A DNA stretch of 40,926 nt from Thermoleophilia bacterium (GTDB taxonomy: Bacteria; Actinomycetota; Thermoleophilia; Miltoncostaeales; Miltoncostaeaceae), in contig JADHKZ010000003.1 of the NCBI GenBank assembly GCA_016780995.1, positions 1 through 40,926 of the forward strand, read 5' to 3'. Of the stretch, positions 3,692 to 26,957 are shown in pieces. The notes below the pieces were generated by a model that saw only the letters and a list, made by a program, of their open reading frames with translations, was not told the DNA's origin and ran no database searches. Made by a program: the position numbers and the translations under genes. Position 1 is the stretch's first letter; each line of letters starts with the position of its first letter.

Positions 3692-4449
<758 letters not shown>

Positions 4450-4453
<4 letters not shown>

Positions 4454-6999
4454 TCCGCCTCATCTTCGCCGGGCTGCGCCAGCGCAAGCTGCGCGCCGCG
4501 CTCACCGCCATCGCCATCCTGCTGGGCGTGGCGATGGTCACGGGCACCCTGGTGCTGACCAGCCAGATCACCCGGGCATTCGACGAGATCTTCCAGGCCG
4601 CCAACATCGGCGTGGACGTGCGCGTGTCGCCCCGCACCGACTTCGAGGGCGGCCTGCAGAGCGTGCCCACCCTGCCGGAGTCCCTGGTGGCGAAGGTCGC
4701 GCAGGTGGACGGCGTGCAGAAGGCCGCGCCCGAGCTGGCGGCGCTGGGGTCGCCCGTGGTGAACGGCGAGTACGTGCAGTCCACGGGCGCGCCGTCGTTC
4801 GTCTTCTCCCTCACGCCCGACCCCTTCCGGGCCACCCAGCTGGCGTCGGGCAGCTACCCCGCCCGCGACGGCGAGGTGGCGGTGAACGAGGGCCTGGCCT
4901 CCGCGCAGGGGCTGTCCCCGGGGTCGCGCCTTGGCATCGCCACGCGCACCGGCGTGAAGGAGGTGACCCTCACCGGCACCGTCACGTTCGCCAACGTGTC
5001 GTCCATCGGCGGCACCACCATCGTCATCGCCACCAAGGACGACGTGCAGCGGTGGTTCGGCCTGGAGGGCAAGGTCAACTCCATCGCGGTGCAGGCCGCG
5101 CCGGGGGTCACCCCGCAGGTGCTCGCCCGTCGCATCGCGGCCGCCATGCCCGCGAACGTCGAGGTGCGCACCGGCCAGCAGGACGCCGCCGACCAGGCGC
5201 AGCAGACCACCGAGGCCATCAACACCTTCCTGCGCCCCGCGCTTCTGGCGTTCGGGGTCATCGCGCTGTTCGTGGGCGCGTTCATCATCTTCAACACCTT
5301 CTCCATCACGGTGGCGCAGAGGCTGCGCGAACTGGGCCTGCTGCGCACCATCGGCGCCAGCCGTCGCCAGGTGATGACCTCCGTGGTGGGCGAGGCGTTC
5401 GTGATCGGCCTGGTGGCCGGCCTGGTGGGGCTTGCGGCGGGCTATGGGTTCGCCGCGCTCCTGGTATGGGTGTTCGACACCTTCCTGCCCGGGGGCATCC
5501 CGGTGGCGGGCGCGCAGCTGTCGTGGGGCATCGCGCTCACGGCGCTGCTGGTGGGTGTGCTGGTGAGCGTGGTGGCCGCGCTCATCCCGGCGCTCCGGGC
5601 GAGTCGCGTGCCGCCCGTGGCTGCCCTGCGCGAGGGCACCGAGATCCCGCGCGGGCGCCTGTCGCGGTTCACGCCGGTTTTCGCCGGCCTGCTCACCATC
5701 GGCGGCGTGGTGCTGATCGTGCTGGGGTTGAACAGCGAGGCCCAGGCCACGCAGCGCCTCCTGGTGATGGCGCTCGGCGCCCTGCTGGTGTTCTTCGCCA
5801 TCGGCGGCCTGCTGCGCTACCTGGTGCCGGGGCTGTCGCGGGTGATCGGCTGGCCGCTGGAGCGCCTGCCCGGGGCATCCGGCAGCCTGGCCCGCCAGAA
5901 CGCCACCCGCAATCCGTCGCGCACCGCCGCCACCGCGGCGGCCCTGATGATCGGCATCGGCCTGGTGTCGTTCGTGGCGGTGTTCGCACAGGGGCTCAAG
6001 GCGTCGGTCACCGGGGCCATCGACACCACCCTGCGGGGCGACCTGATCGTGTCGGGCAAGAGCTTCCAGCCCATCCCCGAGGCCAGCGTGGCCGCCGTGC
6101 GCGCCACCCCCGGGGTGTCGGACGTGGTGTCGGTGCTCACCGACGGCGCGCGGACGCCGGGTGGCGGCAGGGCCACGGTGTTCGGCCTCGACCCCCAGGC
6201 GGCCGCGCGCGGCCTGGCGTTCGAATGGGTGGATGGATCGCAGGACGCCCTGCGCGACCTGGCGCCGGGGCAGGCGGTGGTCGAGCAGGACCTGGCCGAC
6301 CAGGAGGGCGTGGGGGTGGGCGGCACTGTGCGCGTGCGCACGTCCACCGGAGACACCGCGGCCTACCGCGTGGCGGGGGTGTTCCGCGATCGCATCCTGT
6401 TCGAGGGCGGGGCCATCGTGTCGCAGGCCGGGTTCGCGCAGGCGTTCACCGCGCGCGATCCCATCTTCGTGCTGGCCACCGTGCAGCCGGGGCAGGATCC
6501 GGTGGCGGTGAAGGACGCCGTGGCCACGGCGCTCACGCCCTTCCCCGTGGCCGAGGTGCGCACAAACGCCGAGTACCGCGACGAGATCAGCAGCAGGGTG
6601 GACTCCATCCTGTACCTGCTCTACGTGCTGCTGGCCATGAGCGTTGTCATCTCGCTGTTCGGCATCGTCAACACGCTGGTGCTCAGCATCACCGAGCGCA
6701 CGCGCGAGATCGGCATGCTGCGCGCCATCGGGCTCACCAGGTCCCAGTTGCGGCGCATGGTGCGCTACGAGAGCGTGATCACGTCGGGCATCGGCGGGGT
6801 GATCGGCGTGATCCTGGGCGTGGTGCTGGCGTGGGTGTTCTCGCTTGGGCTCCGGGACGAGGGCATCCTGTTCCGCATCCCGTGGACGCAGTTGGTGATC
6901 TTCGTGGTGGTGGCCGTGCTGGCGGGCGTGCTGGCCGCCGTGCTGCCCGCGCGCCGGGCGGCCAAGCTGGATCCGCTGGACGCCCTGCACTATGAGTAG
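4450..6999 (+). CDS. FtsX/MacB-family ABC transporter permease (two FtsX units)
   Basis: This 849-residue membrane protein has a membrane segment at about residues 17-37, an extracytoplasmic MacB-like domain to about 255, and three membrane segments between about 265 and 390 containing the FtsX motif LRELGLLRTIGASRRQV. A second unit begins around residue 475, with its own periplasmic domain, and ends in three further membrane segments around TREIGMLRAIGLTRSQLRR. The duplicated layout is that of the large MacB-like permeases of actinobacteria. The GTG start overlaps the ATPase stop, and the stop overlaps the lipoprotein start by eight bases. Lipids, peptides or cell-wall precursors are possible cargo; nothing here decides. 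Confidence 0.88.
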
Positions 7000-22341: not shown

Positions 22342-23397
22342 CTATCTGGCCGCAGCCAGCCTGGCGCGGGTGACAGTGGCAAGGTTGGCAGGCAGCGGGG
22401 CGTACCCGAGCCCCTGCAGCCTGCGCTGCGCCGCCGGGCTCAGGAAGTAGCGCAGCGTGCGGAGCGTCAACCGATTGATGGGCCGGTCGCTGCGCGTCAC
22501 CGCGTAGGCCTCGGTGGTGATGGGGTACGCCCCTGGCACCGGGCTGTTCAGCAGGTCGAGGGTGGGGGCGCTGGTGGCACGCGCGGTGCTCATCCGACCC
22601 GCCTTGGCGATGGCCGTACCGGTGGGGTGGGTGAACACGTTGCGCACCACCGTCCGTGCTGACACGCCCTTTCCATGTGTAACCCGTTCGCGCTTGCCCA
22701 CCGCCACCACATGGCTGGTGAGGCCCTCGCGCATGGCGTCGGCAATGGGGAGGAAGGTGATGGCACCGCGATTGGCCTGCATGCAATCGCCCACCGCTGT
22801 CATGCGTGGCGTGCGCACGATCTTCGGGGCCCGCCACTTGGGCCTCGGTGATGCGCCGCCCACCTGCCGGCGGAAGATGGCGCTCACGCGTGCCAGGTAC
22901 TCGCTGAAGTCCCACGATTCACCCGACGGGCGCGCGGGGACGCACAGGGTGATGGGCAGGTTTCGCGGGAGGGGGTGGTGCAGGTTGGTCTGCCGGATGC
23001 GCTTGTCGTTCCAGTTGCGGATGGTGCCGGAGAAGATCTCCGCGATGGTGGTGCCGCGGAGATCGACGTTGTGCCCCTGTATGCCGGGGACGTTGACCGC
23101 CACGGCGATGCCGCCCAGCATCATCGGGTAGTAGGCCACCGGGCCGCCAGCGCGCCGGGCCTGCGCCCGCGTGAACCGATCGTCAGCGCCCGCCCACCTC
23201 GCGCCCCCGCGCCGGAGGGAGGAGGCACCGGCGTCCCCGGTCGGCACGTAGGTGCACAGCGACGACGCCGAGCACCACGCCTGGAAGGCCCGTGCCGGCA
23301 GTTCGGCCCCGGCACCCCGGGATGCCGGGGCCGCGGCGGCCGGGAGGGCCAGGGCGCCGATCAGCGCGGACACGGCGACGAGCGCACGGACGATCAC
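22342..23397 (-). CDS. Divergent PstS-like secreted substrate-binding protein
   Basis: This 351-residue protein has a signal peptide (residues 1-25, ending PAAAAPA) and a PstS-like fold: AYYPMMLGGIAVAVNVPG, LRGTTIAEIFSGTIRNWND and PGAYPITTEAYAV correspond to conserved PstS stretches. The ligand loops differ. Where PstS has SGTT the protein has RPSGESWDFSEYL, and the early SDAPL-type loop reads AGADDRFT. It is therefore doubtful that it binds phosphate. GTG 23397 overlaps the upstream stop by four bases (GTGA), so it is coupled to the repeat-rich secreted protein. No transporter permease or ATPase is adjacent. A surface or extracellular binding role is inferred. Confidence 0.75.
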   Translation of the reverse strand: MIVRALVAVSALIGALALPAAAAPASRGAGAELPARAFQAWCSASSLCTYVPTGDAGASSLRRGGARWAGADDRFTRAQARRAGGPVAYYPMMLGGIAVAVNVPGIQGHNVDLRGTTIAEIFSGTIRNWNDKRIRQTNLHHPLPRNLPITLCVPARPSGESWDFSEYLARVSAIFRRQVGGASPRPKWRAPKIVRTPRMTAVGDCMQANRGAITFLPIADAMREGLTSHVVAVGKRERVTHGKGVSARTVVRNVFTHPTGTAIAKAGRMSTARATSAPTLDLLNSPVPGAYPITTEAYAVTRSDRPINRLTLRTLRYFLSPAAQRRLQGLGYAPLPANLATVTRARLAAAR

Positions 23398-25526
23398 AGG
23401 TTGTCCCAGGTGTGCGTGTAGTTCCCGGCCCAGCTCGGGTTGTACTTGACCTTCCCGCTGCACGAGAAGTCGACGCTCGGAGCGGCCTCGAACGCGCAGG
23501 AGACATCCCCGGATACCCGGTCGGCGTCGAAGTACCCCATGACGTCGACGACGGTCGTCCACGCCGCGCCGGTTGTTGCCTGATAGGCGGCCAGGCTGAA
23601 GCCCAGCCCGACCTCGATGTCCTTCGAGAAGGTCCTGTCGTCGACCTCCTCCGAGAAGCTCCGCTTGTAGCTCAGGTCCACCGAGCCGAAGAAGCCGTCC
23701 ACGTACGAGTACTGCGGGCCCTTGAACTGCCCCTTGGAACCGAATGTCTGCTGGTAGGGCGAGTCGGTGCCGTCACCGAACCAGTTCACCTCGAGCGTCA
23801 CGGTCTGCGTCTTGCCCCCGCCGTCGTTCGTGAAGCTCGGCGTGTGGGTGACCTGGAGGTCGAATACGAACTTCGTCAGCGTGGAGCAACTGACCCCGAT
23901 CTCGGCGTCCTGCAGGTCGTAGGTGTTGTTGCCCATCACCACCTCGCCGGTCACGGCCACGTCAAGGGTCGTGCAGCCCGTTGCCGGAACGTCCGAGGTC
24001 CAGGTGAACCCGAACTGGGTGATCTTGAAGTCGTCGGTCCCGGCGTCGAGGTCGGCGCCGCTCGCCGAGATGGTGAGGTCGTAGCCGCCCCCGGGCAGCG
24101 TGGCCGCGCTCATGGCCACGTCGAACGAGCCCGCGTCGGTCTTGAGCGCGGCGGTGATGGATGCCGCCGGGTTGATCGTGTCGATGGTGATGCTGGCTGA
24201 CTCCAGCGTGAAGCCGCCGATCGTGAGGTCGTTCGCCACGGCGCTGGCCTGGAATCCCTGCGGCGTGATGGTGGCCGTCATGTCGAAGGTGGCGTCGCCC
24301 ACGGTCACGCCGGTCACGACGAGGCTCGTGGACAGCCCGGCCGTGGTCATGCTGATGGTGCCGCTGAGGGAGTTGAAGCTCGCCCCGCCGTAGCCGAACC
24401 CGCCATTCGACTCGCCCTGGCTGTCGTCGGCGATGGAGATGTCCCACTGGCTGGCGCTGTAGTAGTCGGCCGATGCCGTCACCGTGGAGGTACCGACAGC
24501 GAAGGTTCCGGAAAGACTGGCCGACCTGGTGAGCGATGACACGGTCACCGTGCCGGTGGTGAGCGTGACGTTGGTGGCGTCACCCCGCCCCTCCGACCAT
24601 CCGCTGATGCTCACGTCGGCCACCGTGCCGGTGGCCGAGATCCCGGCGGGGGTGAGGGTTGCCGACATGCCCACGGACGCATCGCCGATCTGCGCGGTCA
24701 CGCTCAGCGTCGCGCTGGGCACACCGCCCGACTTGCCCACGCTGCCTGAGACGGTGGCCGGGTACGTAGCCGTCGGGAGCGAGGTGCCGCCGGGGACGGA
24801 CGCGGTCCAGTTGTCGGCGTCGGTGTAGTCGAGGGTCACGGGGATGAGCAGGCCCGTTCCCAGCTGCAGGGCAAAGCTCGGTGGCGCGCTGTTCGACACC
24901 GTCACCACGAGGCTGCCGGCAGGCGCGCCCGTGGGGGCGATGAGCGTGCTCAGTGCAAGGGTTGCGGTGATGCCCGAGGCCGTGATGTCCGCGGTGCCCG
25001 AGAGCGTCCGGCCGTCATAGGTGACGCCGGCCACCGCGAGATCCACGGATTCCACGCCGTCCGCCATGGAGATGGTGCCGCTCACCTGATTCAGGTCGAC
25101 GGGCGCCCCGCCGGGCGGCGCGTAGGAGGCCCCGGCGGCCCCCGCAGCGATCGTGATGGTCCAGTCGTCGTCACCCTCGTAGTCGATGGTGAACGCGAGC
25201 GGGGTCCGGTCGGTGCCCACCAGCAACTGGCCGGACGCCTGGACCGAGCGCGTGCAGTCGCGGGGTTGGTTGAATCCCTGCACGCACGTGGTGGTGGCCG
25301 AGGTGATCGTGATTCCCGCCCCCTGGAGCTCCGACGCGATCATCCGGGCGGACGGCACGGTGCTGCCGGCCAGCACCGTGCTGCCGAAGAAGGTGGCCCC
25401 GGAGGAGGTGGTGGTGACGGGCTTCGAGGTCACCGCGAGCCCCGCGGGGACGGGGAGGCAGGCCATCGCCGCCACCATGGCCACAAGGGCGGCCAGGAAT
25501 GGCCGAAGTCGTCCGATGCCCGTCAT
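23394..25526 (-). CDS. Large secreted beta-rich repeat protein, unknown function
   Basis: This 710-residue protein has a signal peptide (residues 5-31, basic then hydrophobic, ending PVPAGLA). Residues 108-460 hold three degenerate repeats of about 118-121 residues, each starting with a DY...W element (TIDYEGDDDWTITIA, TLDYTDADNWTASV, SADYYSASQWDISIA), followed by SGTIS-like and TITPxGIxA-like strands. The last 230 residues are unrelated and aromatic, ending YNPSWAGNYTHTWDNL. Composition is Thr/Ser/Gly/Val-rich with few charges, typical of surface beta-sandwiches. There is no sortase motif or C-terminal anchor. ATG 25526 has a GAAGGA ribosome site; a TTG at 25601 would add 25 residues before the signal and is rejected. 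It is coupled to the PstS-like gene. Confidence 0.8.
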   Translation of the reverse strand: MTGIGRLRPFLAALVAMVAAMACLPVPAGLAVTSKPVTTTSSGATFFGSTVLAGSTVPSARMIASELQGAGITITSATTTCVQGFNQPRDCTRSVQASGQLLVGTDRTPLAFTIDYEGDDDWTITIAAGAAGASYAPPGGAPVDLNQVSGTISMADGVESVDLAVAGVTYDGRTLSGTADITASGITATLALSTLIAPTGAPAGSLVVTVSNSAPPSFALQLGTGLLIPVTLDYTDADNWTASVPGGTSLPTATYPATVSGSVGKSGGVPSATLSVTAQIGDASVGMSATLTPAGISATGTVADVSISGWSEGRGDATNVTLTTGTVTVSSLTRSASLSGTFAVGTSTVTASADYYSASQWDISIADDSQGESNGGFGYGGASFNSLSGTISMTTAGLSTSLVVTGVTVGDATFDMTATITPQGFQASAVANDLTIGGFTLESASITIDTINPAASITAALKTDAGSFDVAMSAATLPGGGYDLTISASGADLDAGTDDFKITQFGFTWTSDVPATGCTTLDVAVTGEVVMGNNTYDLQDAEIGVSCSTLTKFVFDLQVTHTPSFTNDGGGKTQTVTLEVNWFGDGTDSPYQQTFGSKGQFKGPQYSYVDGFFGSVDLSYKRSFSEEVDDRTFSKDIEVGLGFSLAAYQATTGAAWTTVVDVMGYFDADRVSGDVSCAFEAAPSVDFSCSGKVKYNPSWAGNYTHTWDNL

Positions 25527-25657: not shown

Positions 25658-26737
25658 CTACACGTTGAAGCGGATCTGCATCACATCGCCTTCCTGCACG
25701 ATGTAGTCCTTGCCCTCCATGCGGGCCAGCGCCACGTCACGCGCCTTCGAGAACGATCCGCATTCCACCAGCTTGTCCCAGGGCACCACCTCGGCGCGGA
25801 TGAAGCCCCGCTCCATGTCGCTGTGGATCTTGCCGGCGGCCTTGTCGGCCGGGGTGCCCCTGGGGATGGGCCACGCACGCGCCTCGGGCGGGCCCGAGCC
25901 GGTGAAGAAGGTGATCAGGTCCAGCAGGCGGTACCCGGCCTGGATCACGGCATCGGCGCCGCGGGTGGTTCCCAGGCCCATCTCCTCGGCGAACTCCGCG
26001 GCCTCGTCGGGGTCCATCTGCGCCAGCTCCAGCTCCACGCCCACTGGCAGCGCCAGGGCCTGCGCGCCCTGCTCGGCGGCGTACTCGGCCACATCCACCG
26101 GTGGATCGCCGGGGTCGTCGGTGTTCACCAGGTACAGCACGGGCTTGGCGGTGAGCAGCCCCATGCCCTGCGCCACGGCGATGGCGTCATCATCGGCCAT
26201 GGTGCGCACGGGAAGGCCATCGGCCAGTTGCGCGGTGATGGCCTCCAGTGCCGCGGCCTCGGCCTTGGCCTCGGCGTCGCCGGCACGCACGCCCTTCTGC
26301 ACCTTCTCCATGCGGCGCTCCACCTGGCCCGCGTCGGCCAGGATGAGCTCCTCGTCCACCGCGCGGGCGTCGGCCAGGGGATCCACCTCGCGCTCCAGCG
26401 GGTGCGGCACCTCGGCATTGGCGAACCCGCGGAGCACATGCACCATGGCCTCCAGCTCGCGGATGCGCCCCAGCGCCTGGCCTCCCAGCCCCTCGCCCTG
26501 GCCCGCGCCCTCGCTGAGGCCGGCGATGTCCACCACCTCCACCTTGGCGGTGACCCGGTTGGGGATGTCCTGCGCGTCGGCGATGGCGTCGATGCGCGGG
26601 TCGGGCACCGACGCCACCCCCACGTTGGGGTCGCGCGTGGTGAACGGGTACGGCGCCACCTCCGCCTCGCCCCCGGTGACGAGGTTGAAGAGGGCGGTCT
26701 TGCCGGAGTTGGTGAGTCCTACGAGCCCGAGTTGCAG
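25658..26737 (-). CDS. ychF: YchF/OLA1-type P-loop NTPase with TGS domain
   Basis: This is a ribosome-associated NTPase of the Obg superfamily, 359 residues. The P-loop GLTNSGKTA is at about residues 7-15, followed by PYPFTTRDPNVG and the G3 motif VVDIAGLSEGAGQGEG. The C-terminal TGS domain is clear (IHSDMERGFIRAEVV, then GKDYIVQEGDVMQIRFNV). The usual G4 NKxD position reads LVNTDD, near the ATP-preferring NxxE type. No ATG, GTG or TTG lies between the upstream in-frame stop (26770) and the P-loop. CTG 26737 (Leu-Gln-Leu-Gly...) gives the expected N-terminus. GTG 26659 would delete the P-loop. It follows a 72-residue gene with one base between. Confidence 0.85.
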   Translation of the reverse strand: MQLGLVGLTNSGKTALFNLVTGGEAEVAPYPFTTRDPNVGVASVPDPRIDAIADAQDIPNRVTAKVEVVDIAGLSEGAGQGEGLGGQALGRIRELEAMVHVLRGFANAEVPHPLEREVDPLADARAVDEELILADAGQVERRMEKVQKGVRAGDAEAKAEAAALEAITAQLADGLPVRTMADDDAIAVAQGMGLLTAKPVLYLVNTDDPGDPPVDVAEYAAEQGAQALALPVGVELELAQMDPDEAAEFAEEMGLGTTRGADAVIQAGYRLLDLITFFTGSGPPEARAWPIPRGTPADKAAGKIHSDMERGFIRAEVVPWDKLVECGSFSKARDVALARMEGKDYIVQEGDVMQIRFNV

Positions 26738-26738
26738 C

Positions 26739-26957
26739 TCAGGCCCCGCTGAAACCGATCCGCCCGGTCACCTCGCCGGGCAGCACGCGCAGGTAGATGA
26801 CCTTCGCCAGGTCCACGGCGTGGTCGCCCTCCTCGGACGCCACGTCGTGGAAGCCCGAGCCACCGAGGGCGCCCCGGAGGGCGGTGACGTGGTCGTCCTC
26901 GACGGTGAGGAGGAGCACGCCGCCGCCCTCGAGGCCCAGCTCGATGCGTCGGCTCAC
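26739..26957 (-). CDS. 72-residue protein, unknown
   Basis: GTG 26957 overlaps the radical SAM stop by four bases (GTGA), and the frame ends directly before ychF. The product looks like a small mixed alpha/beta protein: RRIELGLEGGGVLLLTVEDD, an acidic middle (VASEEGDHAVDLAKV) and IYLRVLPGEVTGRIGFSG. There is no membrane segment or Cys. The tight packing and balanced composition argue that it is real; no family is recognised. Confidence 0.65.
   Translation of the reverse strand: MSRRIELGLEGGGVLLLTVEDDHVTALRGALGGSGFHDVASEEGDHAVDLAKVIYLRVLPGEVTGRIGFSGA

Follow-up and report, generated by a model that had tools for sequence, protein, structure and literature searches.

A secreted paralogue of the phosphate-binding protein PstS, in which most phosphate contacts have been lost, is encoded together with a repeat-rich exported beta protein in seven species of one genus of Thermoleophilia. 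We read the two genes as a co-transmitted, translationally coupled cassette of two exported proteins, whose products, a repurposed PstS and a beta stalk, would form an extracellular or surface complex with a probable role in recognition or adhesion; for this reading, taken as a whole, we consider the evidence evenly balanced. The pair was recognized in a stretch of 40,926 nucleotides (hereafter the window), which is contig C6 of a Thermoleophilia MAG near Miltoncostaeales (1.67 Mb, 96% complete).

The features of the pair are listed in Table 1. Both reading frames lie on the minus strand and share a GTGA overlap, and the N-termini of both proteins, judged by eye, are hydrophobic and of the signal-peptide type, in agreement with the initial annotation. 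The pair is located between ychF and an HD/OB gene, with a UvrD gene also in the neighbourhood. The earlier remark that no transporter gene is adjacent was borne out as well: in window coordinates, the nearest ABC-type genes are found at 1-7 kb and at 10.4 kb, and no pstC, pstA, or pstB was found beside the pair. The two pst clusters of the host are intact and sit away from the pair on another contig, C67. By sequence inspection, one consists of PstS, PstB, and next to them a 662-aa protein that resembles fused PstC and PstA (L052, 12664-14652); the other comprises a lipoprotein PstS and PstC, after which the contig ends within the first part of another permease gene. No upstream regulatory element common to the pairs was visible across six species, and no sigma-70-type promoter-like site was present in the region.

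Table 1. Features of the gene pair (positions in the window)
Feature	Position	Strand	Size and evidence
Repeat protein gene	23394..25526	-	710 aa; ORF and translation; orthologues in 6 further species
Repeat 1 (~residues 96-196, DY-x5-W at 115)	24939..25241	-	Profile match, E 2.8e-18
Repeat 2 (~residues 220-342, DY-x5-W at 233)	24501..24869	-	Profile match, E 3.4e-8
Repeat 3 (~residues 335-455, DY-x5-W at 354; bounds approximate)	24162..24524	-	Alignment
Conserved C-terminal domain (~residues 480-710), ends NPSWAG-x-Y	23397..24089	-	Alignments; present in other Actinomycetota
GTGA overlap of the two genes	23394..23397	-	Read from sequence
PstS-like gene	22342..23397	-	351 aa; PF12849, E 2.4e-15; PstS fold
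E32-L33, aligned with E. coli PstS T10-F11	23299..23304	-	Alignment
VPARPSGESWD (residues 153-163), at the R135-T141 loop position	22909..22941	-	Alignment

As a separate observation, the ychF frame (start at window 26735-26741, minus strand) contains no ATG, GTG, or TTG ahead of the P-loop. In all six species read (the window and L128, L129, L044, L132, and L130), a CTG stands one base after the TGA that ends a 72-aa gene lying upstream (TGAgCTG, TGAtCTG, or TGAcCTG). This arrangement suggests that ychF has a conserved CTG start with termination-reinitiation coupling.

The repeat protein had been described as carrying three repeats of about 120 residues marked by DY-x(4,5)-W. Three repeats of ~110-120 residues were indeed found; the motif occurs exactly three times, each time with a spacing of five. 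When the last repeat and the C-terminus were combined into a profile, it recovered copies 1 and 2, and their E values (Table 1) indicate that the repeats exceed chance. The number of repeats differs between species, being three or one. In alignments, the C-terminal domain has conserved cysteines at 518/547 and 677/689. The protein is acidic (net charge about -40), and its AlphaFold model is all-beta, a near-unbroken series of strands of ~10 residues each, with moderate confidence (pLDDT 74, pTM 0.54). No match at or near cut-off was obtained in Pfam, NCBIfam, and PHROG, and neither a PDB sequence search nor a fold search of PDB and BFVD gave a significant match, so that the earlier view of a protein outside the characterised families stands for these collections. 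Among the curated families and solved structures searched, no adhesin family matched the repeat protein, and neither a sorting signal nor a surface anchor was found in it; together with the moderate confidence of the beta model, these points count against a surface complex. Two giant exported proteins of ~2,300-2,400 aa (L113, 5679-12671; L114, 3314-10486) weakly match the repeat profile (E ~1e-5), and the repeat may thus belong to a wider set of surface proteins.

The PstS-like protein keeps the PstS framework, as had been proposed. It matched Pfam PBP_like_2 (PF12849), its AlphaFold model (pLDDT 86) has the two-lobed PstS fold, and PstS structures are its top matches in PDB, in sequence as well as in fold (TM about 0.75). 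However, with TIGR00975, the PstS equivalog, it scored 100 bits and failed the cut-off of 205, whereas the pst-linked PstS of the host passed with 222.8. A lipobox is absent. In the E. coli PstS, phosphate is contacted by T10, F11, S38, D56, R135, S139, G140, and T141 (PMC10846223). Three of these eight contacts (D56, S139, and G140) are retained in the window protein and in the paired PstS. In all seven paired PstS, T10 is replaced by E and R135 by P, and D137 is lost; in addition, S38 is lost or displaced, F11 is replaced by L or M, and T141 is replaced by E in five of the seven. At the same positions ([TS]F, D, R, and SGT), the 33 unpaired PstS compared, a set which includes close relatives and is not independent, were intact wherever readable. 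That the paralogue would be unable to bind phosphate in the known way is supported by this pattern of residues. The replacement of SGT by SGESW, which the initial annotation had emphasized, was confirmed in the window protein; nevertheless, SGESW alone is not diagnostic, because two of the seven orthologues still have SGTS. The loop change was rejected as the decisive feature, the constant losses being T10, R135, and D137.

The seven paired PstS form one clade with support 1.0, whose stem measures 0.86 substitutions per site, and they descend from a PstS of this order with a single origin. This clear PstS ancestry, together with an identity of about 40% between the window protein and the host's own pst-linked PstS, is what would be expected of an ordinary phosphate scavenger serving the Pst transporter, with the altered loops being neutral. 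We consider such a scavenger highly improbable, since T10, R135, and D137 are lost in every paired protein and S38 and T141 in most, the protein fails TIGR00975, and no pst gene is adjacent. Moreover, even the natural T10/S10 difference between two PstS1 proteins is accompanied by an about tenfold different affinity (PMC10846223), which counts against neutrality of the altered loops. The capture of an unknown anion, another early suggestion, gained little support, since an acidic residue has appeared at the T10 position and arginine 135 has been lost in all seven proteins.

The substituted pocket residues E32, P154, W162, and D163 are conserved in the clade, so that the site looks rebuilt rather than merely decayed. 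Such a rebuilt site, in an intact PstS fold with D56, S139, and G140 retained, could belong to a solute receptor of new specificity, which would be tethered or concentrated by the repeat protein and pass a captured small molecule to a transporter encoded elsewhere (possibly the resident PstCA) or report it to a sensor. However, the pair travels without a transporter or sensor gene, a lipobox that could hold the protein at the membrane is missing, and in Streptomyces lividans uptake is not fed by the secreted PstS (PMC2605767); a receptor of this kind is therefore unlikely in our judgement, though it deserves more credit than the phosphate scavenger. Arginine and histidine were also seen to be abundant in the paired PstS (27-47 R+H), whereas the unpaired PstS of the genus have 4-10 in those counted and use lysine instead.

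Among the 42 genomes of the host order, the repeat protein occurs in seven species of one genus, and the PstS-like orthologue in the same seven species only (630-662 bits, any other PstS reaching at most 315). The two genes are adjacent in all seven. In six of these species the reading frames overlap by 1-4 nt, and in G003 they start within a dozen nt. The conserved secreted two-gene unit seen in the window is thus a feature of the genus. The G003 repeat gene (L048, 8592-10744) is frameshifted, with two in-frame TGA in the matched stretch; this is due to an error in sequencing or assembly, or else the gene was inactivated recently.

The slot between ychF and the HD gene is variable in the sister species. 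In a tally that leaves out four genomes, it is empty or nearly so in G005, G002, G017, G019, and G008, contains a different exported protein in G013 and G011 and signalling genes in G010, and holds a 52-codon remnant of the PstS-like gene (62% identity) in G018. G003 and G015 are far apart on the flanking-gene tree, yet their pairs are 91% identical in DNA over ~3,066 bp, and the dS of the pair is 0.17-0.38 compared with 0.60-0.74 for the flanking ychF and HD gene. The opposite was seen for G000 and G001, whose pairs are more diverged than the flanks. The low dS of the G003/G015 pair and the empty, replaced, and remnant slots show that species have lost the cassette and exchanged it among themselves. 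Purifying selection acts on both of its genes (dN/dS 0.16-0.36). Carriage by phages or plasmids was considered and rejected, as the cassette was not found in the viral contigs or plasmids searched. In other species, a different small exported protein occupying or flanking the same ychF slot was noted at L129 (2797-3504), L136 (198-935), and L046 (~4284-5024), the last with a collagen-like stretch.

Homologues of the repeat protein were also found beyond the genus. Profiles detected the C-terminal domain in other Thermoleophilia (G161, G232, and G120) and in another class of Actinomycetota (G482 and G955; more weakly G999, G958, and G1011). No PstS gene was present in the 12-19 kb around the standalone homologues of G161, G120, G482, and G955; in G232, the contig stops directly after the homologue gene. 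These standalone proteins share the homologous C-terminal domain with the window protein, and those of G161 and G120 the repeat as well; unlike it, they have near-neutral C-termini, and some are ~970-1070 aa long with a different N-terminal part. Obligate pairing across the whole repeat-protein family was therefore rejected, since at least four other Actinomycetota genomes carry a standalone form, and pairing is a trait of one genus and not of the family. The initial annotation had set as its test that the homologues always be paired with a PstS-like gene; this holds within the order (seven of seven among the 42 genomes) but fails outside the genus, so that of the proposed two-protein extracellular system the conserved secreted unit stands and the strong claim of an obligate partnership does not. 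The PstS partner was thus recruited once, in the host's genus.

A repeat protein that can work without PstS argues against a joint complex. The pair might instead travel together without its products interacting, the linkage reflecting a common insertion slot for surface genes; the presence of other secreted proteins in the ychF-HD slot of other species, and of the repeat family without PstS elsewhere, agrees with this. We hold such joint travel to be improbable, more so than a new receptor, since the reading frames overlap or almost touch, the co-occurrence is strict in seven species and several lineages, and the two proteins co-vary in charge. In the seven pairs, the C-terminal 230 residues of the repeat protein have charges of -19, -19, 0, -4, -7, -9, and -19, and that of the PstS-like partner, in the same order, is +29, +30, +5, +5, +19, +16, and +28. 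The correlation is r = -0.96 for seven pairs from three lineages, the correlation over lineage means being not significant. Because there are three lineages only and the ordinary PstS of the host genome and genus are basic too, the charge co-variation is taken as a lead only.

In the surface complex that we favour, the two exported proteins would act jointly outside the membrane. The repeat protein, an elongated acidic beta protein of one to three repeats followed by the paired-cysteine domain, may serve as a stalk or platform. The PstS paralogue, with its two-lobed fold kept and most of the phosphate site gone, would be the basic partner, perhaps a recognition or cap subunit. The complex would be placed on the cell surface or close to it, and its target may be a surface, a polymer, or another cell. 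A role of this sort agrees with the fast divergence of the pair, its varying number of repeats, its losses, and its exchange between species, and adhesion or sensing, as first suggested for the pair, are possible functions. We put forward only tentatively, and with somewhat more doubt than belief, that a PstS duplicate, formerly a nutrient receptor, has become a dedicated structural or recognition subunit of an exchanged extracellular complex, its charge co-evolving with that of the beta-repeat protein, which would be a new type of bacterial surface complex.

Compared with the PstS of PstSCAB (PF12849; TIGR00975), the PstS-like protein shares the fold, the ancestry, the overall length, the conserved cysteines of the genus's PstS, and the D56/S139/G140 positions, but it differs in the replaced key contacts, a score below the equivalog cut-off, the lack of adjacent pstCAB, and a fixed linkage to a secreted beta protein. 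An extracellular PstS is found outside the membrane in S. lividans (PMC2605767), and the PstS-1 of M. tuberculosis has been reported as an adhesin (Esparza 2015, as cited in PMC6339365). Both parallel the window's PstS in that they act or accumulate beyond the membrane and do not feed uptake there; however, they are ordinary phosphate-binding pst lipoproteins, whereas the window's PstS has an altered site and a dedicated partner gene. The open-licence literature yielded no account of a pair like this one, and within the libraries and open papers covered, both the pair and the domain appear to be undescribed. Their components, a solute-binding fold and a beta-repeat exported protein, belong to known types.

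The pair offers a clean example from nature of how a solute-binding protein has departed from transport, with one origin, key phosphate contacts lost, and a fixed new gene partner, and the same order supplies unpaired PstS as controls. With the pair comes an extracellular domain, spread through Actinomycetota, that is uncatalogued. In an uncultured genus, the two-gene cassette has been lost and exchanged, as expected for genes facing phages, grazers, or neighbours.
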